This document shows positions 12,606 to 37,780 of a DNA stretch of 64,000 nucleotides, one piece after another (positions within the stretch are counted from its first letter, which is position 1; each line of letters opens with the position of its first letter). Source of the stretch: Schizochytrium sp. TIO01 (taxonomy: Eukaryota > Sar > Bigyra > Thraustochytrida > Thraustochytriidae); contig SMSO01000034.1 in NCBI GenBank assembly GCA_004764695.1, forward strand, positions 1,443,501 to 1,507,500. The letters run 5' to 3'. Both the position numbers and the translations under genes were made by a program. Below the pieces are notes generated by a model, which did not search any database, was not told the origin of the DNA, and was given only the letters and a program-made list of their open reading frames with translations.

Positions 12606-15600
12606 ATGTCGGGTCCCGAGCGGCGGCGCCCTCGCGTGAGTAGTGGAGGCTCAGGACCGTCGGGCCTTGGGTCTCGTAGCAACGTATGGGCTGCGTCGCA
12701 GGCTTCCAACGGCCGCGGGGACCCGGACTGGCGCATCGATGCCAACCCTGACAACGACAGCACTGACAAGAACGACAACAACGAACTCAATAATGAATTC
12801 AACGATAAAGAAAGAACTGCCATTGGCGGCGGAAATAATGGAACTCAAGGTCGACGAGGAGCTTACGCAGCTTCGAAACGCAATAGTAGTCACCGAAACG
12901 GGTACCGGGGCGGTCCTGAAGAAATTGCAAACCTTGAAATGAGGCAAGGGGATTTTTTCGAAGAGGATGCAGATCGTGACATTCAATATCGTGACGAAAT
13001 GTACAACGAGATCGATGGCCTTGAAAATCATGAGGATGATGAAGACGATGCAGGCATGCCTTGGACGCAGGTTCCTGAAAATAGCGGTGCTCGAAGGCGC
13101 AAAGATCGAGGTGGTCTTCAGATGTTACTGCACGACGACGACATCCAATCTATACCGACCTCTGTCTCGCCATCAGTAGCCAGCTCTTCTGTGCAAAGTC
13201 TATTTCGTAGGAACGCCTATAGCAACTACAATGGTAACAGTAACTACAGCGGCAGCAACTACAATCGGAGTGGCAAAAACTACAACAACAGCGGTGGGAG
13301 TAGCAGCAATAATAGCGGCGGACGTGGCAGTAGTGTGCTTTCGAAGAAAAACTCGAGGCTAGCGCAGGAACTTTCTATGAGCAGAAACCTAGACTCGAGA
13401 AGACTTCATGATAGCTGGGCTCACTCTTCGTCTTCCATGGGGTCATCAAGACCGTCACTTTATTCAAACTCCTCTCAAGGCTTCTTGCAAAAGTCCTGGG
13501 GGGTCCTGAGGGGGTCAAAACATCCACCATCATCAGGAGGCACTCATAGTCAATCCCAAACAGCGAGTACAACTACAAGGTCCTGGTCGGCTTCAGTGCC
13601 CACAATGATTCTTGTCGGTGTGATCTCTGTGTATGGAGTGTTGTCAGTGTTTGTAAATTTAGGCTTTAGGCTTTTAGGAATTCAACTACCGATGTTGCTT
13701 GCGCCGATTCTCCTCATTGTTATTTCTGGAATTATATTAGCGCGCCCTGGCACTTTGGCGTCGCTGCTTTGTACAGGTATCAACCTGGTGGCACAAAGGG
13801 CAATTGGGCTAAACACACGCGCTGAAATTGGCCGCATCGATCTTCTTCGCCGCCGCATCGATGGCATGGGTATTTACTGGGAGGATGTTTCAATCGTTGA
13901 AATTGAGGAGATCTCATTGCAGTTTACATCTCGAGCGATGCACGAATTTCATGGCCCGACTAGACCATTACTGACCCTCATGGTGAGTGGCGTTCATATT
14001 AACATGTTACATGCCCTGATTGAAGCGTTCTTAAACTCCGGAGCCGTATCAATGAGTTCAAAACAGCAAACTGGACAACAGTCGCCATCTTCTATGGACT
14101 CAACAGCAGGTCCTTCTGCAGGACCTGGGTCGCCAGCTCCGCCTAGTAATCTGCCAAGTACAAATATTAATAGCAGGGGCTCTGCTGGGCAACAAGGAGG
14201 GTCTAATAGTCAGGCCACTTCTGAACAGCAGTTCTTGCGCCAAAAGCAACAAAAGAAGCTTGAGAATCAACAGAAGCTTTTTGGACGAATCGTGTGGATT
14301 AGTGGCTTCTTGGTTGCAGAAGTTGATCGAGTAAATCTTCGATTTATCTCGAGTGATGTCAACTTTGATCTTCAGGCTCATAATCTACTACTTTCATGCT
14401 CGAAGCGAATTGTTTCTGGCCACAAAGACTCGCAGAAAACGGAAAGGTATTCTTCTGGTAGTAGAGGTATTGAAATTGGCGGAGCAAGCATGAACACTAA
14501 TCCTAAAACACCCGATAGTAGTTTTGCGTGGACTGCAAATGAACTGTTGACAATTGCTGAAACGAGACTCACAATGGGGAAGTTTTCTATTGACGTGGGT
14601 TGTGGCTTGAATGCTACCCCAATTTTCAATTTAGATGGCCTTTGTATTGAGGCAGGAGTTGCACACTCCTCAGAGAGTGGGTCTCACCCAGTCTGTGCAT
14701 GCCTTTCAGGCTCAAAACAGAATGTAGGAAACCGCGCCTCACTCCCCAATGGAGGGTTTTTAATTCACAATCTCTCAATAGGGGCAAATGAAATTGACTT
14801 GTTAGCCTCTCATAATCTTGTGGCAGCGCTTCGTGTGGTTATTGGTCTTCAGAAAAAGTCTCATATTAATCATTTGCCGCATGATGGTGGAAGAAACCAC
14901 TTCATGCCAGATGCTTCTGAATCAGCCACTGCTCCACTTGATACACAGGAGGACCTGGCTACAATGTCCGCAGAACGTCGCATTGAGCTTTCGCGCAAAG
15001 AGCGTTTGCCAGGCTTGCGTAAGTCGCGCACTTCTTCAGAACTTTCAGAGGATACTGCTATGAGTGAGCTCTCGATCGATTCCGCAGGCTGGGAGTGTGA
15101 AAGGTGCCGTTTTTATAACCAGCCTTTAGATCTGGTATGCACAGTTTGCAAAATGCCGTCTGATTCTGACGCTGCAAATACTGAGTCTTCTGAAGCACAC
15201 GCAGGCGTAGCTCAGGCACCCAAGGCAAAGTCTCGATCTGCAACCTTGGAACCTCAGGAATTCGGAGCCTCAAAGAAAAGGCCTTCCAATATTCAAGACA
15301 AATCTAGGAGACCTGTTCCAGGCACTCTCGCAATGGATGATTTTCTCCAAGTACATGGTGATGACAATATTGAGGAGGATGAAAAGGACGAAGAGGAAGA
15401 CGAAGAAGATGAGGAGGAGGAAGAGGACTCTCCAGGTAGTATGTCCCACAAACCCAAGGAAGCAGTCAGGTCAGCCCCGGAGGTAATCTTGCAGAGTTTG
15501 CTGCGGAAACTTCCCACTCTTTGCGAGGTCCAAATCTCGACGCTTCTTTTCGCTGTTCAGGGCGAACGTGCATCACAAACGATAGGTGGCGGGGCCATCT

Positions 15601-18600
15601 TGCACTGTCAAGTCCAAGGACAACTAGCTATAACCCAAGCCAAACCTCCTCCTGGTATATATGAAGAATCTCAAAAGCTTGTTTCAAGATCGATTGTGCT
15701 GAATTCACGCATACAGCACTTGACCGGTGCTGTGCTCCCATGCTCATTTGAACGCATTGCAGCAAACCAAATTTCAATGCGAGAAAGCAGAAACTTTATG
15801 CTACTTCCCGAACTAAGAAAGCATACTTTCTTGCAAGTTCGAGATATTGAAACACGTTTCACAGCTGATATTAATGTCACCAAAGGTAACCGTAATGATC
15901 CGTCTTTAAAAGATACGTCGACCTCTCCTCCAAAATCTACACGAGGTGATGACCGTAGCGACATCTCGAGTGATGACATTGAAGGTATAGACGTCTCGAA
16001 AAGGGACAGTAGCTCAGCTTCTGAAGATAACAGTGACGAAGAGGATGAAACTCTCAATGCTGGTGAAAGGGGCAGTCTAGGCACCCTAAATAAAGAGCCT
16101 GGTCGTGCATGGAGTTGTCCAATTTGCAACAACCGCAACACAGGTTCTGATCAAGTTTGTGGGCTATGCCAAGAACCATACGACGCAGTTGTTGTTCGTC
16201 CAGCATCTTGGTTTGACATGTCTCCTATTTCTGGGGGCGCATTAAAAACTGCGCAAAATGATCATCATCATGATACTTCTATTCGTGTAGAGCTTCATGT
16301 CCGCCAACCAGAAGTCCAGGCCAGCTTAACTGCGTTTGAATGCCTAACAAATCTAAAAGGTGCCTTGACACAAGTAGATGATGATGAGGATGACGAGGAT
16401 GACGAGGATGGTAATGATTACGATGATGCGGACGAATTAGAACCCGGAACGATCTTACATTCAGGCCGCGGGACAACGAAGGGGGGTGAAACCCCCAAAG
16501 CTAGCCAACCAGCAGTCGTCATAGGTCACGGCATGGCGGAAGACGACTCTACCGAGATTCAACCCAGCAAGCCCGTGCCGAAAAAATCTGCATTTACTCC
16601 TTGGATGTCAGAAGTTATTGGTGTCTCTTTTACTAGGACTGTCCGCTTGCACTTCGAGGTGAGTGAAGCATCTTGCAGAGTGCTTCCAATGACGCCAGTT
16701 TCCTCGCGTAAGTCTGTTAACATGGGCACAACTATTAGTGCTACACAGGTTACGGCAGAACTGCACAAGATTACCTTTAAAATTAAACTTGATCATGCTA
16801 TACCACCCGCACTTGCAGCGCTTGCATTGCGTAACGCTCGCAATGCTCGTAAGTCTGGCAAGCCTTTGACTGGTCAAAAACATGGAGTCCAAGTCATGTT
16901 CGGTGCGTCAGACATTTCTATAGGCCCCATGTCAATTTGGCAAGTATTTACAGCTCGCGAAGCAAAGTACAGGGCCAATGAAGTTAGTCAGTGGAGCACA
17001 CAAGTTCCTATCGGTAATGTGGATCTAGATGAGAGCAAACGAAGATCTCGACTTGTTCATGTGTCAGGACCAATTTCCACAAATGTTCGGCTTCAATGGG
17101 AGAAGTCTGCTTCAGGTCCACGTTTAGCAGCTGTGAAAGTTCTCGGGTCAGATCCAGGCGTCCGGATCAACCTTCATGGCGCTTCTGTGTTGCGTATTCT
17201 TGCGCTTGTCTATGATTACTCAAATGAATATTTGCGTTGCTTTAAAACGCAACTCCAGCCAACTCATGTTGGTCGTGGGAACACTAATTTTCCTCAACAC
17301 ACGCGAAAGGAGAATCAGCCTAAAGGACCTCGAGCTGCTGTTGCGTCATCTACAGGGCCGACAGCTTCCGCTATAAAGCAAGCCCAGTTTTTGACGGCAC
17401 TCAAAACTAAACTCCAAGTTTCAATTACCTTTAAAAAGCTGTCTGTTGCAGTCCATGCTGTTGATAGTCTTACAAATACAAGGCACGCGTTTCGTCTATC
17501 ACTGCCTGAACTTTCCATTGACGCCTGCGGAGACAAGCCAATCAAACTTCGGTTGCGGAAAACAACGGGTTCACTTGCAACCAGCACGAATACAAGCTCC
17601 ATGGGTACATACAATCCATTTTTCAAGTGCAGCAAGATCTCGCTCGACATAATATTCGGGAAGTCCGAAATTGCAAATGTGCCCCTTACTACTTTGGATA
17701 TGAAGATGTACCTTGTTCAAGTGACACAAGGGCCAGATATCCAGTTCGGTCTTGCATTGCAGGCCTTGCTTCGTCAGCGCAAAGCTTTGCGCCAAGGGCT
17801 CAGAGATCTAGCAGCTCGTCGCGTTATTCTGAAGTCTTCATCTGCAAGGAGCTCACCTACAAACATGAGTCAACATCAACCTAACAGTGCTACAAGCACA
17901 TATTCCCCGCTAACAGGAGTTAGCTCCCCTACGGGCTATGCCTCTGGCGTCAATAGCGTTTTTGCAGCAAGTTTCGACCCGTCAAAGCCATTGTTTGTGT
18001 CTCCAAAAGTTGATACGCGCAAAACAGTACAGCAAAGCTCAAGTGCGAAGAAAGGGTCGCACCGGCAGATCCATATCAAACTGCAAGTGGACGAGCTGCT
18101 GCTACGCTTCTTGCACGATGAAGACAGTTTCGTTGAAGATCCAAGACTCGAAAAGTATCGGCCATCAAAGAACAGCACTGCAAAGTCAATTCCGCCTTAT
18201 ATTGGTTATATTTGCCTTGAAAAGACATCGATCGGTTTAGAATGGGATAGTGTTGAGCACTCAAAAGAAGGACTAATTGATTTAGTGTGGGCATTTGATG
18301 ATTGTTCAAGTGACACAATTCCACGAGCAGCACATGCCCACGGATTTTCTTTTGCTCTGGGAGCACGGATTTTCCAGTTCGACGTTTCACACTCTCTCTT
18401 TCAGCTGCGCAATCATAAACGCCCCCTTGCAGAGGCATGGTCTCTCTCTGTCGCTCGGCCCTGCACCATTGTGCTAGCAGAACTCCGAGGTACGTCTGCA
18501 TGCATCTCAACTGTAGATGTTGTTCTCAGCGAGGCCTTCCCTGGTATTTTTTCTCATGATGTTACTCTTGAGCCGCAAACTATGCTTGATTCAATGTCTC

Positions 18601-21600
18601 TTCACCCATACGGAGTCCTTTTCAAGGACCTCCCGCGAGCTGCTGTACCTTTGAAGACCTACTACGATGTGGATCTTGTATGCGCCCAGCTGAATGTAGC
18701 CTATGGAGAATGTCTTTCTGCAACTTTGCGTGCCTTCGATGTTGCATTCTCCAGAATGCTGCCGAAGTCATCTGACAAGCGCTCGCCGAGATTAGGATTC
18801 TGGGACAAGCTGCGTTACCTTTTTCATGGCCTGCTTAACATCCATGCAAAACGTGCAAGCGTTCGTCTACTTACGTTGTCTCCATGGCATGGTGACACTG
18901 GTCTTTTGATCTCAGGCAATGATCTTCAATTGAGGAACCTGCGTGAAATCCATGAGAAGCCTGGCAGCCACTTGCGGAAGGGAAGGCGCGGTATTGATGA
19001 TTCTAGAAAGAGGCTTGCGAAGCACCAGTCTAATAGCCGATCTATGGCATCAGATGGTTCAGCACGGGATGTCATGGACTGGAACTCTTTCTTTGTACCA
19101 ATGTCAAGGCATGGATCTATTCGCTCACGGAACCACAGTACAGGTTCCACTGGTCGAGATTCTTTTGAAACAGCAACTTTGAATAATTCTGACACTGGTA
19201 CTGGTGATGGCAATAATATGGGCCAGAATGTTCCCATTGCTAGAGAGTGGGAAATAACTAGCCACCAATTTGTACTGAGCGCAATTCGTAATGACCGTGC
19301 AAACAAAGTTTTGCAAACTACCCTTCTCACAGCGCCTCGTACGCGATTACATGTTTCGTTTCGATGGGGCCAGAACTCTACTCTTGATCACTATGTACAG
19401 CTTATGCATGCGCCTGATGCTCGGCCGTGGAATATTGACGACATGTATGCGGACTTTCGCTCAGATGGTTTAGATCTTGGTCTCAAATTTGAATTCGGTG
19501 TTGCAGCGCGGGTGGATCATGGAGGCAAACACGAAACACCGCCAGGAAGCCCAAGTATAGGCTTGCAGTATACCGGTGAGGTGGTTTCCCCACCAAGACT
19601 GAATCCCACGCCTGAAAACAGGGCTGATGACGACGATGACGACGATGATGCTTCAGATACTCTATATCCTACAGTAACCTTGTGTTGGAGCTCATATCCG
19701 TATCTCTGCGAAATTCGCCGCGCTTTTGCTCCTCTGGGGCCATCTCGTACACCACCAGAAAAGGCAACCTTTGCAAGGCTGTTAACCCGTCTCCGTATCG
19801 GTATCTTGGCTGACCGTCCACGCGTTTTGTGGTGGGAGGAACCTCACTCTGAGGCTGCTTTGTTTCTTGCTGCAGACTCTGTAGTGACCAGGATTGAGTA
19901 CATTCGCCCTCCAGACGAAGGAATTGATTGGGCTCCACCTTGTGGATACCCCCCCAAATGGAAGCAACACGCACTTTTGGTTCAATGCTCGATGGTACAA
20001 AGCCATTTCATCCCAAGAGCCATGCCATACCTTTCCATGGCTGACTCCGCAATTCTTCTAGAGGAAAGAACTTATGTTGATGCGACCGGTTGCGGCTGGA
20101 GATTCTCAAACACCTTCCCCCCTCCACCGATGGCGACTTTGGAAGCAATGAGCTCATCTTCCAAGGATGAAGACAATCCGGCCCAGAAGCTCCCAGCCTC
20201 TGAGCCATGGGTCATGACCCCTGCTATCATGCTGACCGCTGGTCAGTGGCAACAGATGCAGGCTTCAATGAAAACCAGAGAATCCATGACTTCCCAAGAC
20301 TCATTTTATACGTTTAATGATGAGGACCCGGGAGATGACTCTGTTTTTACAATTCGTATGGACGAAGTGCGGCTTCGATGGGCTATGAGTATCCGCGATG
20401 CGCTCTTCATGGTTGTTGGGAGTGTAATGTTTGCGTTTCGACTGCAGTCAAAGGTCGACGAAAGACTTCGAGAAGAAGCATTTCTTGCTGCAGATTCTCA
20501 AGCGCTTCTGCTGCTCGCGAAACATAAACAAAAACAATTGAAAGGAAATCTTCCTTCTGATGATCAAGTAAGTACGGACTCTGTCATCATTCGGGAGAGT
20601 TCTACCTCGCTACAGGGGGATGACAATTCGGCTCCGGAAGGCCAGCAAGATGTAGAAGCGGCACAACGTAAGGCTCAGTTTGACGGGCACTTCTTTGGTC
20701 CCTTAGTAGACTTTGAAGATGCATTTGCGCCAGAGAAGCCCCCGAGTGCTTTCATGGCTGATTTGTTGCGCAGAAGCGATCGTGCTTTGAATGGGCGTAA
20801 ATATAAGGCACCAACGGCTTATGTAGAGCATTGGGTTCATGATGAGCAGTCTCTTCGCCTGGAACAAGAAACCACTGGGAAAGACTCCGGTGATGATTCC
20901 TCCGGGAAGGATGTTCCAGGAAACGCGTCCAATGATGTCTCTGAAGGAAACCTTTTTAATGACGCTAGCGGAAGCTTTCCAGATGATGACATGGGAGCAC
21001 AAGGTCATGACGATGCCCAAAGCACGACGACTTCTGAGGCTCATGGAGAGGAAGCAGGACAACTGGAGTTCCTTGTCAAACTACGCTGGGGCCAGGTATT
21101 TCTGCGTGCTGATTCCGACGCCGCTTTTGTGACAGGAGAAGTTGCTACTATTCGTACTTTCAAGAGCCTCATGCAATGTTTTGAGCGCCTGACAAATACT
21201 GAAATGCCAGGGTTTGAGATGATACGAAAAGAAGTCGACGTCCAGGTACGTGGAGCACAGGTCTTCACACTCACGTCAGAACACGCTGAGGAACGTCGAG
21301 AGCGCTGTACTCCTTGGGTCGATTTGCGACGCAATTACGAGTCTCTCTGCTTTACCGATACTTTGCAAGATTATGCATTCTGTTTTCATGTAGATGATGA
21401 GTTCCGATTGGGCTCTGAATATGAGTCTGAAGATACTATCGCACGAACAACTTCCCATCATCGCCGAAATGTAGATACTTTGGGTGGATCGGGGAAGGGC
21501 AAGGGCTCAATCGATCACAGACCAGCCCTTGAGCGAATGAATTTCTCTATTCGTGAGCTTTCCTATGCGATTGTTCCTCCCGAGTCCGCAGCACAGGCTA

Positions 21601-24600
21601 AACAGTACTCCCCAAGTGATGCTCGAGTTCCTAAAGGCAGGTTTCTTCTAAATTTACCTAGTCTCAATATCAATCTGGACTCGCGTTCCTTTTTTGATAT
21701 TTTGGGTGTTATCCGCAAATTATTGCTTGTTATGCCTTCTCCAGATTACACAGCTCTACTGAAAAAGGCTAATGTTCGCGATGAGAAGTCCCACCCAAGC
21801 CACAGTCGTGGAGAATCTGGAGACTGGGAAGACTCTTTCGGTGATCTCGATATGGATGGAGATTTTGAAGATAGTGATTCTGACCTTGGACAACCAATTC
21901 ACAAAGTTCAAGCGTTACTTGGAGATGATTTTGTGGATGATGATATTACACCCAGTGATTTAGATTCATTGGTGGAAGATGCATCTACAACCGATTCCGT
22001 TGATGCAAGGCCTCACGGCGCAGCACACTCACGCTCAAGGTCCGTTGAGCTTCCGTCTGAGAAGCGACGAGTACATCATAAGCCAACGCAAAGTGAGGTT
22101 GGTGTAATCGGTCTTGACGCTGGAGATTTGGCAGCTATTCAACGTGAAGCACAACATATCCGCACTGGCTCAAAGGGTTCATTTTCGGGTCGTTCGTCAC
22201 AGATGCGAAGAGGACAGACGTTTGTGGGAAATATCTCCTCTCGATTAAGGCCACGCGCTCGTGCAAATACTGGCTCTGCTGCGGCTTCTGTTGCAGGATC
22301 GGTTGGGAGCCACAATTCAGGGCGAAATCGCCGGGAGTCAATTATAGGTGGCAAGCAGCTGTTGTCCGAAGCGGAGGCTGAACTGATGAGTAGCAACAAT
22401 AGTTTTGGGGTGCTAAAAAAGATAATTGAGCGACTTCTTGGTGCACGCACTGTTGAGGAGAAGGCGCGCGAATCGGAGCTGGTCTATTCCATTGGTGAAG
22501 CCAACATTTATCTTGTAGAGGACGGAAACCCACCGAATTCAGGAGGGACTCAGCAACGTAAGGACGAAAGCCAAGGTGGTAAAGTAGAGTTCAGTCGGGT
22601 GATGATGCAGATATTTAACTTGCGTGGATCCCATACTTTTGCTAATGATGGGTCAACTCGTGTACAAATTTCTCTAGGCGACTTGCTTGTATCCGACATA
22701 ATGCAAGCGAACTGCAGTTTCCGCGATATTTTGCGAGGTTATGTCGTCAGTTCAGGATCAAATGATTCCTCGCGTGTTCCACTCTTACGTGTTGATGCAA
22801 AAACACAACCACATTTTATTGTTGGAGATTATAAGGTCAACGTCTATGAAATGCTTCAAGTACTCATTTACCCTGGTGCACCTTCATATCGCCTGGCTGT
22901 TCATTTGACTTACGACGCTGCAACATTTTTCATGCGCTTTTTTCAATCAGAGGCTGATGAAGATTTTAGTGACGACACAGCCCTTATCCTTGCGCCCACT
23001 AAGGTTTCCTCCACAGAAACACATTCATCGTCGTCCGATCATAAGCTTGGCTTGCAAGATGATCTCACAAGCATCGGCACCAGTGGAAATCCTGGAGGAG
23101 TGCCACGATCTCGAGGTGGAAGTCTTTCCGACGAGGCTGTCGAACTTGCTCTATTGGCCGGTCCCCAAGACACTGGAGCGCCTCAACCACAACGAATCAT
23201 TCGTAGCGGCTATATTTTGAAGCGTGGGCGTAACGACATCTCCTGGGCTGCTGGCCGAGTTCGACGCAACTTTTGTCAGCTAAAGGTTGTTCGGACTGAA
23301 GGGGGCGACGGGCACCAAGTCGTTTTGGAATATTACCGCTCAGAGTTAGAAACCCGCCTGAGATTACCTCCAAGGGGAACAGTTTATTTGAAAGATGTTG
23401 TGGTTCTAGATTTTTCTCAAGATCTGGGCGCTCCAAAGCATGCTCTGGATATGATTGTCCAGTCTTCAGCCGCTGTGTCACGAGGTCGCGCGGATCCAGA
23501 CGCTTTAGCACGTACAATAACCTATACATTTTCGCCTGATTTAAGCGGGCGGCGTAATCGTACAGCACATCCAAATGTTGCTTCTGCTGAGTGGATTGCT
23601 GCTATGCGGCCATTTGTTCGTAAGAATGTTCTCGGCGATGACATCACCAAGGTACTAAAGGACGAATCTCATCGTCAGACATTTGATGATATTACATCAC
23701 ATGCTTTGAAGCTCTTTGTTAGTCATGCACAGAGGCGTGCGGCTGCGGCAACTGTTAGCGCGCAACGTCGGGAGAATCAGTCGAAGGCACTCATTGAGTA
23801 CGGTCTTGCTAGACCAGATGTTCGTATGGCCTCGAATGAAGGAATTCCGCTAGAAATGTTGCGTGATTCAAAACAGTACGAATTATTTCTCACACAGAAT
23901 CGGGCCAAGCGGTATCTTCTCTCTAAGAGACGTGCTTCTGCGATGGGTCTGCTTGACAGTGACACAATTCGCATGCATTCTGGAGAGCTAGTTGATTTAG
24001 TTTACATGAAATACATGAGGACTTCGGGCCTTTATATCTCTGTTGCACTGCAAGGGTTCCCTTACTTTGGCAAATTGAATAATAAAAGAGCAGAATGTGC
24101 AGCGATTAAGCTGCACTTCCGGCTTTTCACCTGGCAAAAGTTTTTTGGCTTCATGCGCCAAAGACTGACACGTAGTTTGATCAAATCCCTGATGTTTACT
24201 GGCGCGGCGGGAGCACGTAATCGAGAGCGTAATATGATGCGCGAAGCTGCCGAACAAGCTGGTCGTGAAGCTCTCGCTAAAGAATTCAACGAGGAGCGTG
24301 CTAAAGCAGGAGCTGCGGTGAAAGCGTCTGCTAACGCCAAGGCAGCGACGTCTGCGAGCAGTAGTCACGGTGGAAGCTCTGATCGAGCAGCTTCGACTGG
24401 TCGGAAGTTACCTAGCCGACAACAGGTAAAAGAAATTTTTACGAAGAAACTAAGTTCAGGATCTAAATCCCCAAATTCTGCTGATGCAACGGTGGGGACT
24501 AATCGGAGTGTAACGAGCCCAAATTCTGCGAGCTCGACAAGTGAACCGCAACATCGACGAAACCTACGTATATCTATTGGCATTAAGACCCCATCGATAT

Positions 24601-24713
24601 CATCGACAACAGCTACAGCGAGCTCGACTCGCGGACCATCAAGCACACATGATTGCATTGAAGAGGAAAGTCAGATTGATAGTGATGATGATCCTCACCA
24701 CCACTTACACTGA
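12606..24713 (+). CDS. giant bridge-like lipid transfer protein, FMP27/SABRE/Hobbit (BLTP2) family, with zinc fingers and PH-like domain
   Basis: One uninterrupted frame of 4035 codons. Residues 1-320 are disordered, rich in Ser, Asn, Gly and acid. A hydrophobic double segment at about 333-380 is the membrane anchor, and what follows reads like the start of the repeating beta-groove. Two RanBP2-type zinc fingers (W-x-C-x2-C-x10-C-x2-C) lie at 829-851 and 1169-1190, with acidic runs near 920-945. The family hallmark 'GFWDK' occurs at residue 2064, followed by 'LRYLFHGLLNIHAKRASVRLL' as in FMP27/SABRE proteins. A proline/tryptophan-rich segment near 2440-2500 ('WAPPCGYPPKWKQHALLVQC') corresponds to the family's WPPW region. 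A PH-like domain sits at about 3530-3675 ('SGYILKRG...', ending '...EWIAAM'), and the C-terminal hallmark region at about 3795-3865. BLTP2/SABRE proteins form long channels that move lipids between ER and plasma membrane. The zinc fingers and the size (typical members have about 2200-2800 residues) are unusual. No introns are required. Confidence 0.88.
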   Translation: MSGPERRRPRVSSGGSGPSGLGSRSNVWAASQASNGRGDPDWRIDANPDNDSTDKNDNNELNNEFNDKERTAIGGGNNGTQGRRGAYAASKRNSSHRNGYRGGPEEIANLEMRQGDFFEEDADRDIQYRDEMYNEIDGLENHEDDEDDAGMPWTQVPENSGARRRKDRGGLQMLLHDDDIQSIPTSVSPSVASSSVQSLFRRNAYSNYNGNSNYSGSNYNRSGKNYNNSGGSSSNNSGGRGSSVLSKKNSRLAQELSMSRNLDSRRLHDSWAHSSSSMGSSRPSLYSNSSQGFLQKSWGVLRGSKHPPSSGGTHSQSQTASTTTRSWSASVPTMILVGVISVYGVLSVFVNLGFRLLGIQLPMLLAPILLIVISGIILARPGTLASLLCTGINLVAQRAIGLNTRAEIGRIDLLRRRIDGMGIYWEDVSIVEIEEISLQFTSRAMHEFHGPTRPLLTLMVSGVHINMLHALIEAFLNSGAVSMSSKQQTGQQSPSSMDSTAGPSAGPGSPAPPSNLPSTNINSRGSAGQQGGSNSQATSEQQFLRQKQQKKLENQQKLFGRIVWISGFLVAEVDRVNLRFISSDVNFDLQAHNLLLSCSKRIVSGHKDSQKTERYSSGSRGIEIGGASMNTNPKTPDSSFAWTANELLTIAETRLTMGKFSIDVGCGLNATPIFNLDGLCIEAGVAHSSESGSHPVCACLSGSKQNVGNRASLPNGGFLIHNLSIGANEIDLLASHNLVAALRVVIGLQKKSHINHLPHDGGRNHFMPDASESATAPLDTQEDLATMSAERRIELSRKERLPGLRKSRTSSELSEDTAMSELSIDSAGWECERCRFYNQPLDLVCTVCKMPSDSDAANTESSEAHAGVAQAPKAKSRSATLEPQEFGASKKRPSNIQDKSRRPVPGTLAMDDFLQVHGDDNIEEDEKDEEEDEEDEEEEEDSPGSMSHKPKEAVRSAPEVILQSLLRKLPTLCEVQISTLLFAVQGERASQTIGGGAILHCQVQGQLAITQAKPPPGIYEESQKLVSRSIVLNSRIQHLTGAVLPCSFERIAANQISMRESRNFMLLPELRKHTFLQVRDIETRFTADINVTKGNRNDPSLKDTSTSPPKSTRGDDRSDISSDDIEGIDVSKRDSSSASEDNSDEEDETLNAGERGSLGTLNKEPGRAWSCPICNNRNTGSDQVCGLCQEPYDAVVVRPASWFDMSPISGGALKTAQNDHHHDTSIRVELHVRQPEVQASLTAFECLTNLKGALTQVDDDEDDEDDEDGNDYDDADELEPGTILHSGRGTTKGGETPKASQPAVVIGHGMAEDDSTEIQPSKPVPKKSAFTPWMSEVIGVSFTRTVRLHFEVSEASCRVLPMTPVSSRKSVNMGTTISATQVTAELHKITFKIKLDHAIPPALAALALRNARNARKSGKPLTGQKHGVQVMFGASDISIGPMSIWQVFTAREAKYRANEVSQWSTQVPIGNVDLDESKRRSRLVHVSGPISTNVRLQWEKSASGPRLAAVKVLGSDPGVRINLHGASVLRILALVYDYSNEYLRCFKTQLQPTHVGRGNTNFPQHTRKENQPKGPRAAVASSTGPTASAIKQAQFLTALKTKLQVSITFKKLSVAVHAVDSLTNTRHAFRLSLPELSIDACGDKPIKLRLRKTTGSLATSTNTSSMGTYNPFFKCSKISLDIIFGKSEIANVPLTTLDMKMYLVQVTQGPDIQFGLALQALLRQRKALRQGLRDLAARRVILKSSSARSSPTNMSQHQPNSATSTYSPLTGVSSPTGYASGVNSVFAASFDPSKPLFVSPKVDTRKTVQQSSSAKKGSHRQIHIKLQVDELLLRFLHDEDSFVEDPRLEKYRPSKNSTAKSIPPYIGYICLEKTSIGLEWDSVEHSKEGLIDLVWAFDDCSSDTIPRAAHAHGFSFALGARIFQFDVSHSLFQLRNHKRPLAEAWSLSVARPCTIVLAELRGTSACISTVDVVLSEAFPGIFSHDVTLEPQTMLDSMSLHPYGVLFKDLPRAAVPLKTYYDVDLVCAQLNVAYGECLSATLRAFDVAFSRMLPKSSDKRSPRLGFWDKLRYLFHGLLNIHAKRASVRLLTLSPWHGDTGLLISGNDLQLRNLREIHEKPGSHLRKGRRGIDDSRKRLAKHQSNSRSMASDGSARDVMDWNSFFVPMSRHGSIRSRNHSTGSTGRDSFETATLNNSDTGTGDGNNMGQNVPIAREWEITSHQFVLSAIRNDRANKVLQTTLLTAPRTRLHVSFRWGQNSTLDHYVQLMHAPDARPWNIDDMYADFRSDGLDLGLKFEFGVAARVDHGGKHETPPGSPSIGLQYTGEVVSPPRLNPTPENRADDDDDDDDASDTLYPTVTLCWSSYPYLCEIRRAFAPLGPSRTPPEKATFARLLTRLRIGILADRPRVLWWEEPHSEAALFLAADSVVTRIEYIRPPDEGIDWAPPCGYPPKWKQHALLVQCSMVQSHFIPRAMPYLSMADSAILLEERTYVDATGCGWRFSNTFPPPPMATLEAMSSSSKDEDNPAQKLPASEPWVMTPAIMLTAGQWQQMQASMKTRESMTSQDSFYTFNDEDPGDDSVFTIRMDEVRLRWAMSIRDALFMVVGSVMFAFRLQSKVDERLREEAFLAADSQALLLLAKHKQKQLKGNLPSDDQVSTDSVIIRESSTSLQGDDNSAPEGQQDVEAAQRKAQFDGHFFGPLVDFEDAFAPEKPPSAFMADLLRRSDRALNGRKYKAPTAYVEHWVHDEQSLRLEQETTGKDSGDDSSGKDVPGNASNDVSEGNLFNDASGSFPDDDMGAQGHDDAQSTTTSEAHGEEAGQLEFLVKLRWGQVFLRADSDAAFVTGEVATIRTFKSLMQCFERLTNTEMPGFEMIRKEVDVQVRGAQVFTLTSEHAEERRERCTPWVDLRRNYESLCFTDTLQDYAFCFHVDDEFRLGSEYESEDTIARTTSHHRRNVDTLGGSGKGKGSIDHRPALERMNFSIRELSYAIVPPESAAQAKQYSPSDARVPKGRFLLNLPSLNINLDSRSFFDILGVIRKLLLVMPSPDYTALLKKANVRDEKSHPSHSRGESGDWEDSFGDLDMDGDFEDSDSDLGQPIHKVQALLGDDFVDDDITPSDLDSLVEDASTTDSVDARPHGAAHSRSRSVELPSEKRRVHHKPTQSEVGVIGLDAGDLAAIQREAQHIRTGSKGSFSGRSSQMRRGQTFVGNISSRLRPRARANTGSAAASVAGSVGSHNSGRNRRESIIGGKQLLSEAEAELMSSNNSFGVLKKIIERLLGARTVEEKARESELVYSIGEANIYLVEDGNPPNSGGTQQRKDESQGGKVEFSRVMMQIFNLRGSHTFANDGSTRVQISLGDLLVSDIMQANCSFRDILRGYVVSSGSNDSSRVPLLRVDAKTQPHFIVGDYKVNVYEMLQVLIYPGAPSYRLAVHLTYDAATFFMRFFQSEADEDFSDDTALILAPTKVSSTETHSSSSDHKLGLQDDLTSIGTSGNPGGVPRSRGGSLSDEAVELALLAGPQDTGAPQPQRIIRSGYILKRGRNDISWAAGRVRRNFCQLKVVRTEGGDGHQVVLEYYRSELETRLRLPPRGTVYLKDVVVLDFSQDLGAPKHALDMIVQSSAAVSRGRADPDALARTITYTFSPDLSGRRNRTAHPNVASAEWIAAMRPFVRKNVLGDDITKVLKDESHRQTFDDITSHALKLFVSHAQRRAAAATVSAQRRENQSKALIEYGLARPDVRMASNEGIPLEMLRDSKQYELFLTQNRAKRYLLSKRRASAMGLLDSDTIRMHSGELVDLVYMKYMRTSGLYISVALQGFPYFGKLNNKRAECAAIKLHFRLFTWQKFFGFMRQRLTRSLIKSLMFTGAAGARNRERNMMREAAEQAGREALAKEFNEERAKAGAAVKASANAKAATSASSSHGGSSDRAASTGRKLPSRQQVKEIFTKKLSSGSKSPNSADATVGTNRSVTSPNSASSTSEPQHRRNLRISIGIKTPSISSTTATASSTRGPSSTHDCIEEESQIDSDDDPHHHLH

Positions 24714-27726: not shown

Positions 27727-30196
27727 TTAAAACTCAAGTTCTTCAAGACCGAGAAGAAATGGGCTCAAGAGTGGGACTAGTCTTGCACGAGCACAAAGTT
27801 CGTGACGCAGGTCAGCGATTCGTAGAAGCGATTCGTGCATTCGTCTTTGCTTACTAGCGTTAATGTGATCGCTGTTCGCATCCTTCGACGAATTTTTTAC
27901 CCTTTCGCTATTCTTCTGTTCCTCTAAAGTCTCTCGGGCACGTTTACGGCCCATAGGCAATTTAAAAGCGCAAGAGACAATAATTGCAGATTGAAGCTCA
28001 TCCAGTACTTGGAGCGCATGTTTTTCAACTTTGTATAATTTTGTAAGCCGCAAATTAATGTCAAGTGCAGCACGGATTGACTCAATGAGAGTGTTGCTGT
28101 ATAATTGCAAGCATTTTTGTTAGCATTTTGTAAGGACAATTGGAACCGGGCATCATCTCTTGGACTTACTCTGATGAGTCTAGACTGTAAATTATTGCAG
28201 CGATGCAGGCATCCAAACCAAGATATAAAAACGAGCGTTAGGATAGGGAGATTTTCTCACTATAAGCAATTTGGAGCTTTACTTACATCAAGTTTGTCAA
28301 AACTTCATTTTCTCTTACTGCACCTGCAAGCGCTTCTGTTCCATGTATACCAATGTCATTCCTTCCCACACTACCCAATGCATATTTGTTAAAAGTAAAA
28401 TAGATCAATTAGTTTCTGTCTGGCGATGGGCCTCATGCGTTTTCACTTACTTCAAATATGTGAGAGATTTGTTCATTTTGAAGGCATCCACAAGTGCTTG
28501 TGCGTCTGCAAAATCAAAATCGGAGTCTGGAATACTTAAATCTGCAAGAGATGCACTGGTTTGCAGTGCATCTGCCAGGGCATGGGCTCCTTCGTCTCCA
28601 ATAGCATTTCTGAAGAGACTGTTGGATCAGTCACATGGCACAATGTCAGTTTCCATAAACAGAATACAGGACTCAAAAGAGGAACTTACTCTAGTCTCGT
28701 CAAACGAGTATTTTCTTTGAGGGCCTGTGCTAGCTTTTGAGCCCCCTGCGCTTTAATATTATTGTATCGAACACTTTGACAGGGTAATTGCGTTAGGCTG
28801 TGTGGTTTGTAGATGAGGTGTGTCATACGGTCACTTACTTTAATTCAACAAGGTCAAAGTTTGTCTTTAATACCTGTGCTATTGCCTCTGCACCTTCGTT
28901 GCCAATTTGATTGCCACTCATACTATTTTTCAAATACCAACGTTAATGAAATTGCTGTTTTTCTGTAACGAATACAACTCAAAACTTACTCAAGGATTCG
29001 AATCTTACTATTACGGGCTAAGAGATCTGCTACTGCCCGAGCCCCTGTGGGTTGCACAGAATTAGCACAAAGACTATAAGGTTTGGGATGATTCAGTGTT
29101 AGTTGGTACTGCTGCGAAACAGAGCAAGATGACAAGCCAACGTACTTGAGATCTGCCACGGTCGGATGGTCATGAAGAGCTGAGGCTATGAAACTTGCAC
29201 CCTCTGGGCCCAGCTCGTTTCCAGCAAAACTAATTCCCATTAAGCAGTATTTCGACATTTCCTTGTTAGCATTTGTGTGGTCTACATGGTGTCTTTTTGG
29301 AATAAATAACGCACCTGATAAATTTAAGAGCACGGTTTGCTCTGAGCCCACTAGCAATAGCACTCGCGCCTTTGGAGCCAATGCAGTTTTCACGAAGGCT
29401 ATGTTGCGCAGTGTTGTTATACTTTATGTTAGAGTTTGGATTTCAGGCAATACAAAGAAAAATCTGAAGGTGAACGTACTTTAAGTATTCCAGAGTTTCA
29501 TTATCTTTCAAGAGTGTACCAATGATTTGGGCACCCATATCGCCAATATCATTATTAAAGAGACTAAGTAAACGAATGTTAATTTCTGACGCTCTCAAGC
29601 TACCGTATATGGGATGTACTTACCTTAGATGTTTAATGCCCTTCAAGCTTTCTGAAAGATTTCGGATACCTTCGGCTCCAATCTCGTTTGCTTCGATGCT
29701 GTCAATACGTGGTTCGAAAGGTTAGTGAAAGTTGAAGTTGGGTTTTATTCTGTCTCACAAGTGAAAACTTACGCAAGAATTGGAAGGCCAGGTCTTTTCG
29801 CCAAGCCCTTGGCAAGAATGCATGCTCCTTGTGAGCCTAACGCATTCCCATACAAAGTCAACGACACGATACTTTTGTTTTGCGCAAGAGCTTGCGACAA
29901 TAGTTGTGCATCATTTTCGCATAAACAAAGTCCATGGAGTTTAAGTTTCTTCAATGTTGTGCTACTTTGGACAGCCTTCATCAATTCTTTGATGTCTAAA
30001 GCAACGGCTCGATCGAATTCAATTCTGTTTACATGATTATGTTCGCGATTCGAAGTTAGCGATAGACTTAGATGTGATGAAGATTTGTTAGAGTCCGTCT
30101 TCAGGATTTGTAGACTTACGAAATATCTGCCTCGCCTCTGCATATTTTTACAAGAGCATTGCTTAACTTTGTGGCATCATCTTCGCCGTTCATCAT
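27727..30196 (-). CDS. leucine-rich repeat protein, ribonuclease-inhibitor (NLRC3-like) type, 13 exons
   Basis: Reconstructed CDS (minus strand): exons 30120-30196, 29773-30024, 29624-29698, 29480-29563, 29315-29398, 29146-29229, 28990-29073, 28839-28922, 28690-28773, 28451-28618, 28287-28370, 28170-28184 and 27727-28096. This totals 1545 bases, an exact multiple of three, giving 514 residues. Every intron is GT-AG, phase 2 and 60-102 bases long; donors are GTAAG-like, with GTACGT or GTGCGT in three. Most exons are 84 bases, which is one 28-residue repeat with consensus 'N.IG..GA.ALA.AL..N..L..L'; two exons hold three and two repeats. About 14 repeats form a curved LRR solenoid of the RNI type, normally a protein-binding scaffold. 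The C-terminal 100 residues are helical and charged with a basic patch ('GRKRARETLEEQKN'). There is no NACHT or other signalling domain, and the binding partner is unknown. The frame is open above the ATG to a TAA at 30260-30262, so a further 5' exon is not excluded. Confidence 0.85.
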
Positions 30197-37445: not shown

Positions 37446-37650
37446 TTGCAATCGCATCTTAGTCCCCAAAGCCAAAACGCCATGCGAGATCGGCAATAAT
37501 TTGTTCAAGAAAGCATCTTCTGACCCATAGTGCGCTCGCTTATTGCGCTAATAAGTAAAACTTTGGTTTTGGAGTACTTTGCTTTCATCCGCTTTTCATA
37601 TGTTGACCTCTCCATACTATTCCAAAGTTCACCGTTGAACGAAACTAATT

Positions 37651-37780
37651 TTATTCCATTCCATTAATTCCATTCCATTCCATTGATTTTATTCCATTCC
37701 ACTAATTCCATTCCATTTATTCCATTTATTCCATTCCATTCCATTTATTCCGTTCTATTCTGTTCCGTTCTATTCCATGC
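37651..37780. repeat. (ATTCC)n pentanucleotide array, imperfect
   Basis: A 130-base array of ATTCC units with occasional TT insertions and C-to-G changes towards the end. Confidence 0.9.

Follow-up and report, generated by a model that had tools for sequence, protein, structure and literature searches.

The window, as we call the whole 64-kb stretch of DNA that was analysed (located in contig C33), carries an LRR gene composed mainly of exons that each encode one repeat. We consider it likely, with a probability of roughly three in four, that this gene is an old product of one-repeat cassettes, and that the same gene class is still exchanging cassettes and the codons of four residues per repeat (X1–X4) at about 95 other loci. 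The architecture, in which one repeat occupies one 84-nt exon between phase-2 introns, is genome-wide and occurs in two age classes. The window gene is an old, settled member of this large class, while the young members form tandem arrays, many of them adjoining rDNA.

The Thirteen-Exon Gene of the Window

The gene was rebuilt from its splice signals on the minus strand (30196–27727), with 1545 nt of exon sequence including the stop codon and 514 encoded aa; the exons are listed in order in Table 1. A sequence-only reading of the same DNA had placed 13 exons totalling 1545 nt with no internal stop at 27727–30196, and the rebuilt model reproduced this exactly, adding the strand, which had been left unstated. 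The exon sizes given there (seven of 84 nt, one of 168, one of 252, and one of 75) were obtained again, as was the claim that all introns are in phase 2 and 60–102 nt long, which in the model predicted from splice signals applies to 12 of 12. Donors are GTAAGT, GTACGT, or GTGCGT, and acceptors end in CAG, TAG, or AAG. Eleven of the introns split the RI-type 28-residue LRR at one codon position (LxxL-x|L), and the twelfth, on the 3' side of the 15-nt microexon, lies five codons past this common cut position.

When the 64-kb window was scanned for open exons of the form AG-84-GT that bear an LRR signature, nine were found on the minus strand and none on the plus strand, so the 84-nt pattern of the gene is not a product of chance. 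Judged by these sequence signals, the 13-exon gene in the window is real, and its expression and splicing, like those of the array genes described below, are presumed. The least certain part of the model is the putative microexon, because the frame would also be kept if it were skipped. At the other end of the gene, the reading frame of exon 1 is open slightly 5' of the inferred start codon.

Table 1. Exons of the window gene (window positions, in transcript order) and selected tandem LRR exon cassette arrays with hypervariable concave-face codons (contig positions)
Feature	Location	Strand	Description	Basis or remark
Exon 1	30120..30196	-	N-terminal, 77 nt, MMNGEDDATKLSNALVKICRGEADIS	donor GTAAGT; start codon inferred
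Exon 2	29773..30024	-	252 nt = 3 repeats	splice-signal model
Exon 3	29624..29698	-	75 nt, single repeat minus 3 residues	splice-signal model
Exon 4	29480..29563	-	84 nt, one LRR: LFNNDIGDMGAQIIGTLLKDNETLEYL	splice-signal model
Exon 5	29315..29398	-	84 nt, one LRR	splice-signal model
Exon 6	29146..29229	-	84 nt, one LRR	splice-signal model
Exon 7	28990..29073	-	84 nt, one LRR	splice-signal model
Exon 8	28839..28922	-	84 nt, one LRR	splice-signal model
Exon 9	28690..28773	-	84 nt, one LRR	splice-signal model
Exon 10	28451..28618	-	168 nt = 2 repeats	splice-signal model
Exon 11	28287..28370	-	84 nt, one LRR	splice-signal model
Exon 12	28170..28184	-	putative 15-nt microexon	strong splice signals, ttacag / GTAAGT
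Exon 13	27727..28096	-	370 nt, degenerate last repeat and basic C-terminal tail	stop at 27727
Array L039	C3:25473-31292			
Array L040	C3:2297976-2303498			
Array L041	C4:2700-9420			
Array L042	C4:246577-265487			
Array L044	C5:1793907-1797800			

The spliced protein matches Pfam LRR_6 (PF13516) at 4.9e-36 and comprises a short N-terminus, a run of about 12 repeats of 28 residues, and a basic tail. Its serial 28–29-residue repeats of the form LxxLxLxxNxIxxxGaxxLaxaL make it a member of the RI-type (RNI-like) LRR proteins, and it aligns with the ribonuclease inhibitors of pig and human at 1e-27 to 1e-30. Pfam searches returned no match beyond the LRRs, the basic C-terminal tail included, and detected neither a NACHT or NB-ARC domain nor a ROC-COR GTPase domain in the protein. 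Comparison of its C-terminus with the C-termini of the array proteins gave no significant similarity. The product would most likely be a fixed intracellular protein-binding scaffold, namely a soluble LRR protein of the RI type.

The sequence-only reading had also described the rest of the window as free of introns, which largely holds: roughly a dozen further genes that match Pfam families each occupy a single open frame, and about 30 kb contain no long frame. Among these genes is an unbroken 4035-aa frame of the Hobbit/FMP27 family at 12606–24713, with a weak RanBP-type zinc-finger match. A degenerate ATTCC pentamer array lies at 37650–37778. Elsewhere in the genome, matches to PfaA-type PUFA synthase (C4:608161-617209) are split between an open frame of 1031 aa and a second one of 2172 aa and do not lie in a single frame, and no light-harvesting proteins were found in the genome. 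Taken with the size and GC of the genome and its dispersed 5.8S genes, these traits suggest that it belongs to a thraustochytrid such as Aurantiochytrium.

Two Age Classes of One Architecture

The 12 full 84-nt repeat units of the window gene have a mean nucleotide identity of 42% and a maximum of 57%, and adjacent units are no more alike than distant ones. Where two repeats carry the same residue, the codon is also the same in 32.3% of positions, against 32.5% expected from codon usage. With such low identity and no excess of shared synonymous codons, the gene gives no sign of recent exon copying, an outcome that the sequence-only reading had named as one that would refute it; its duplications, if they are duplications, are saturated. 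A comparison of exons, proposed as a way to find recent duplicates, accordingly yielded none.

The genome searched comprises 64 Mb in 37 contigs of one assembly. An exon-end pattern specific to 84-nt LRR exons has 1329 matches in it, compared with 95 when the spacing is shifted by one base and 174 when the pattern is run backward as a control; its sensitivity is about 95% for array exons and 64% for old exons. Seven other multi-exon LRR loci with short frames (L031–L037) and L043 consist chiefly of 84-nt phase-2 exons of one repeat each. Among the well-scored exons of these loci, 56 of 68 are exactly 84 nt long, and 60 of 68 are 84 or 168 nt. The old class is represented by the window gene and seven other sampled loci, in which within-gene exon identity is 39–50% and synonymous sites are saturated. 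In the young class, formed by the arrays, exons are mostly 82–89% identical, and matching residues have a common codon in 78–98% of cases.

The genome also contains many LRR genes that have repeats of this kind and no introns. L021 (C35:71912-72820) has an intronless 422-aa frame and is the top match of human LRRC34 in the genome. L004 (C8:217836-219017) and L003 (C13:5733192-5734373) contain the same intronless 506-aa LRR frame with near-identical scores, and represent either a duplicate or a redundant contig.

The rDNA-Linked Cassette Arrays

The unit of an array is an 84-nt exon with an intron of about 300 nt, which gives a cassette of about 380 nt with a spacing of mostly 345–480 nt. Intact AG-84-GT boundaries and an open frame are found in 149 of the 151 units with a conserved core. 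The array genes have a common C-terminal exon, for which 105 matches were obtained at about 95 loci; it is open in nearly all of them, and its acceptor is also in phase 2. Neither a signalling domain nor any other Pfam family was recognised in the terminal exons of the arrays, and a search of viral contigs found no relatives of the C-terminal exon.

At least 37 array loci have a 5.8S gene among the matches listed at a distance of no more than 20 kb, a count that is a lower bound on the linkage, and all 37 are on the same strand as that gene. These loci are located mostly 3.5–6 kb upstream, and 29 further array loci lie near contig ends. The 5.8S genes themselves are dispersed, with at least 40 copies of identical score. 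In contigs C6, C13, C24, C33, and C34, rDNA units and array genes occur in opposed pairs inside large scaffolds; such internal facing pairs may be chromosome ends that were joined in scaffolding. A (CTTG)n microsatellite of variable length separates the conserved N-terminal exon from the first LRR exon in L039, L040, L042, and L044. Repetitive arrays of this kind are easily misassembled. Some of the copies come from small unplaced contigs, and C10 is a small contig; in L054, two exons are frameshifted, and its comparison with L053, which is out of register by one unit, was left aside.

Variable Residues and Their Exchange

Over 42 aligned array units, diversity is 0.07–0.10 in introns and low in most of the exon, and it rises to mostly 0.4–0.74 at exon nucleotides 5–9, 14, 16, and 82–84. 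Even with introns that are about 98.4% identical, units differ from one another at 62% of the variable nucleotides, and the same applies to units with distant introns. The variable residues are X1–X4 of the motif SL-X1-L-X2-X3-N-X4-I, which forms the strand and turn lining the predicted concave face. Amino-acid entropy reaches 3.5 bits at X2, 3.5 at X3, and 2.7 at X4. The remaining positions nearly all stay at about 1 bit or below, with codon 8 (S/D) as the exception at 1.6 bits. The X1–X4 residues form 128 combinations among 138 distinct array exons, which is near-random. Most array exons carry C at the third position of X3, so changes at this residue are mainly nonsynonymous.

In porcine ribonuclease inhibitor, the residues matching the variable stretch are LWLWECDI, and the matching residues of ribonuclease inhibitor include known ligand contacts. 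The concave face of LRR proteins is often the site of ligand binding (PMC3138743).

Within array exons, X2, X3, and X4 show mutual linkage, but X2 and the X1 of its own exon, about 75 nt apart, are unlinked. Linkage is nearly complete between X1 and the synonymous Leu base that precedes it (z 51). A comparison of near-identical copies illustrates how such states are replaced. Arrays L050 and L052 contain the same 12 units and are 98.9% identical over 5.3 kb; they differ at 7 of 144 variable sites (4.9%), 17 of 864 framework sites (2.0%), and 30 of 4266 intron sites (0.7%). Their differences come in blocks: ATC to TGA at X1, TATGGC to TCCTAC at X2X3, and, at codon 8, two exons with GAC in place of TCA. 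These states are all present in other array units. In a unit-level alignment of L055 and L056, the five leading units and the last unit are identical, and units in the middle were gained or lost.

Proposed Mechanism and Alternative Explanations

The unit of growth of the class would be an exon together with its intron, that is, an 84-nt exon with phase-2 introns at the common cut position within the repeat. Since both ends of this cassette are in phase 2 and its length is a multiple of 3, it is symmetric, and recombination could add, remove, or exchange whole repeats without a frameshift. The process is probably still active at the approximately 95 loci that have the conserved C-terminal exon in common, many of which adjoin rDNA. 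Exchange would keep the framework and the introns of the arrays alike, with X1–X4 staying maximally diverse as they are reshuffled by gain and loss of cassettes and by the exchange of short blocks, presumably through gene conversion. Selection for new binding specificities is most likely behind this diversity. Exon duplication is the best account of the architecture of the class. The earlier proposal that exons were copied by duplication thus holds for the class, in which array cassettes are visibly duplicated, and does not extend to recent copying in the window gene. Similarly, the predicted gain of repeats without frame change is found in recent array copies, which gain and lose whole cassettes in frame, and not in the window gene, where recent duplicates are absent. 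For the settled genes, whose introns are no longer alike, an origin by the same cassette duplication as in the arrays is presumed.

An intronless ancestor could instead have gained introns independently at the same site in each repeat, without its exons ever being duplicated as cassettes. Such an origin would suit the exons of the window gene, which are alike only in the LRR consensus, as well as exons 2 and 10, which have no introns at their internal repeat boundaries, and the many LRR genes of the same repeat type without introns. However, introns inserted independently would need to have landed on one of 84 positions eleven times in this gene, and to have repeated this at the other loci sampled. 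In near-identical array units, introns were copied along with the exons, so cassette duplication demonstrably produces this architecture here, and parallel insertion is unlikely. The arrays could also be regarded as non-coding satellites or pseudogenes with mutational noise at the variable codons, a reading suggested by their high-identity tandem units, their position beside rDNA, and a few broken copies. It is difficult to reconcile with the splice boundaries and frame kept in almost every unit, the open C-terminal exon, the placement of variation at codons of predicted surface residues, and the third-position C at X3 and third-position T at X1 held by most array exons; we consider it improbable. 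The saturation of variable sites even among units with nearly identical introns might further indicate dedicated hypermutation aimed at these codons, that is, random mutagenesis in place of the exchange of existing variants. Yet a restricted codon set recurs at the variable sites, the Leu base is tied to X1, and where near-identical copies carry a new state, that block also occurs in other units. Together these observations point to the exchange of existing variants and leave targeted hypermutation with a low probability.

Two further alternatives concern the window gene itself. The sequence-only reading saw in it a variable recognition protein, and it could be argued that its repeats are now being gained, lost, or skipped, given that all its internal exons are symmetric, so that skipping or gain would preserve the frame, and that the same exon architecture is dynamic in the arrays. 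This is very unlikely. The gene is a single locus inside a chromosome, and its distance from the nearest 5.8S gene among the matches listed exceeds 400 kb. Its exons have reached saturation and include neither recent duplicates nor a synonymous signal, and nothing in it shows variability; variable recognition would fit the young rDNA-linked arrays and not this gene. The other alternative is a conserved ciliary LRRC34-like protein that would be a structural part of the zoospore flagellum, encoded by a gene whose introns are simply ancestral. The best sequence matches of the window protein in the PDB do include the axonemal LRR proteins MOP84A and LRRC34, but these matches are restricted to generic repeats. 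A search with human LRRC34 leads to another gene, one without introns (C35:71915-72736; 3e-28), and does not list the window locus, whose short exons lower its score in such a search. As human LRRC34 best matches another gene, this identity seems unlikely.

Comparison with Known LRR Systems

In the thraustochytrid literature searched, no description of these LRR genes was found by title or abstract. Lamprey VLRs are assembled somatically from germline LRR cassettes. The arrays resemble them in their LRR cassettes, conserved framework, variable concave-face residues, and templated exchange, and differ in that assembly in the lamprey is somatic, whereas the variation described here lies in the genome assembly. 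The array genes would fit a changing recognition repertoire, a role suggested by the pattern of variation, as their end exons contain no recognised receptor or signalling domain. Tentatively, and with slightly less than an even chance, the approximately 95 rDNA-linked, mostly subtelomeric LRR genes may constitute a VLR-like germline system of recognition or self/non-self discrimination, independent of the arrays of Tetrahymena and brown algae.

Human NLRs and ribonuclease inhibitor contain RI-class LRRs in short, frame-preserving exons of whole repeats, with in-frame splicing variants (PMC6642158). The genes presented here likewise carry RI-class LRRs on short frame-preserving exons of whole repeats; in contrast to the NLRs, no NACHT or effector domain was found in them, and rDNA-linked arrays of near-identical cassettes are not described in that work (PMC6642158). 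Brown-algal ROCO genes have 72-bp phase-2 LRR exons that undergo exon shuffling and diversifying selection, and are candidate immune receptors (PMC11378527). The likeness lies in one LRR per exon and in phase 2, probably within the same supergroup. The window protein has no equivalent of the 72-bp exons and the ROC-COR GTPase of those genes. The array termini match no Pfam family.

Together with the brown-algal genes, the closest parallel is that of Tetrahymena, in which arrays of 90-bp LRR exons with a phase-2 bias and with old and young groups were described as possibly unique to that organism (PMC6564038). Its young arrays are concentrated in subtelomeric and pericentromeric regions, and their exon number shifts by ectopic recombination (PMC6564038). 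The genes described here similarly have LRR exons in tandem that share a single exact length, introns that are almost always in phase 2, and two age groups. The phase-2 bias is found in all 12 introns of the window gene and at the junctions of the array and C-terminal exons. Location near chromosome ends and changing exon number characterize the arrays and not the internal, settled window gene, which is the counterpart of the older Tetrahymena group. The exons are 84 nt long here and 90 bp there, and the lineage is another one; RI-type repeats, many rDNA-linked arrays, and variation confined to concave-face codons are the features of the present system. A parallel system with a different exon length and in a different lineage suggests that symmetric phase-2 LRR cassettes have repeatedly given microbial eukaryotes a way to build large and changing repertoires of binding proteins. 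In the arrays, framework and binding residues are so clearly set apart that diversification becomes directly measurable, and the window gene offers a picture of such a gene once change has stopped.
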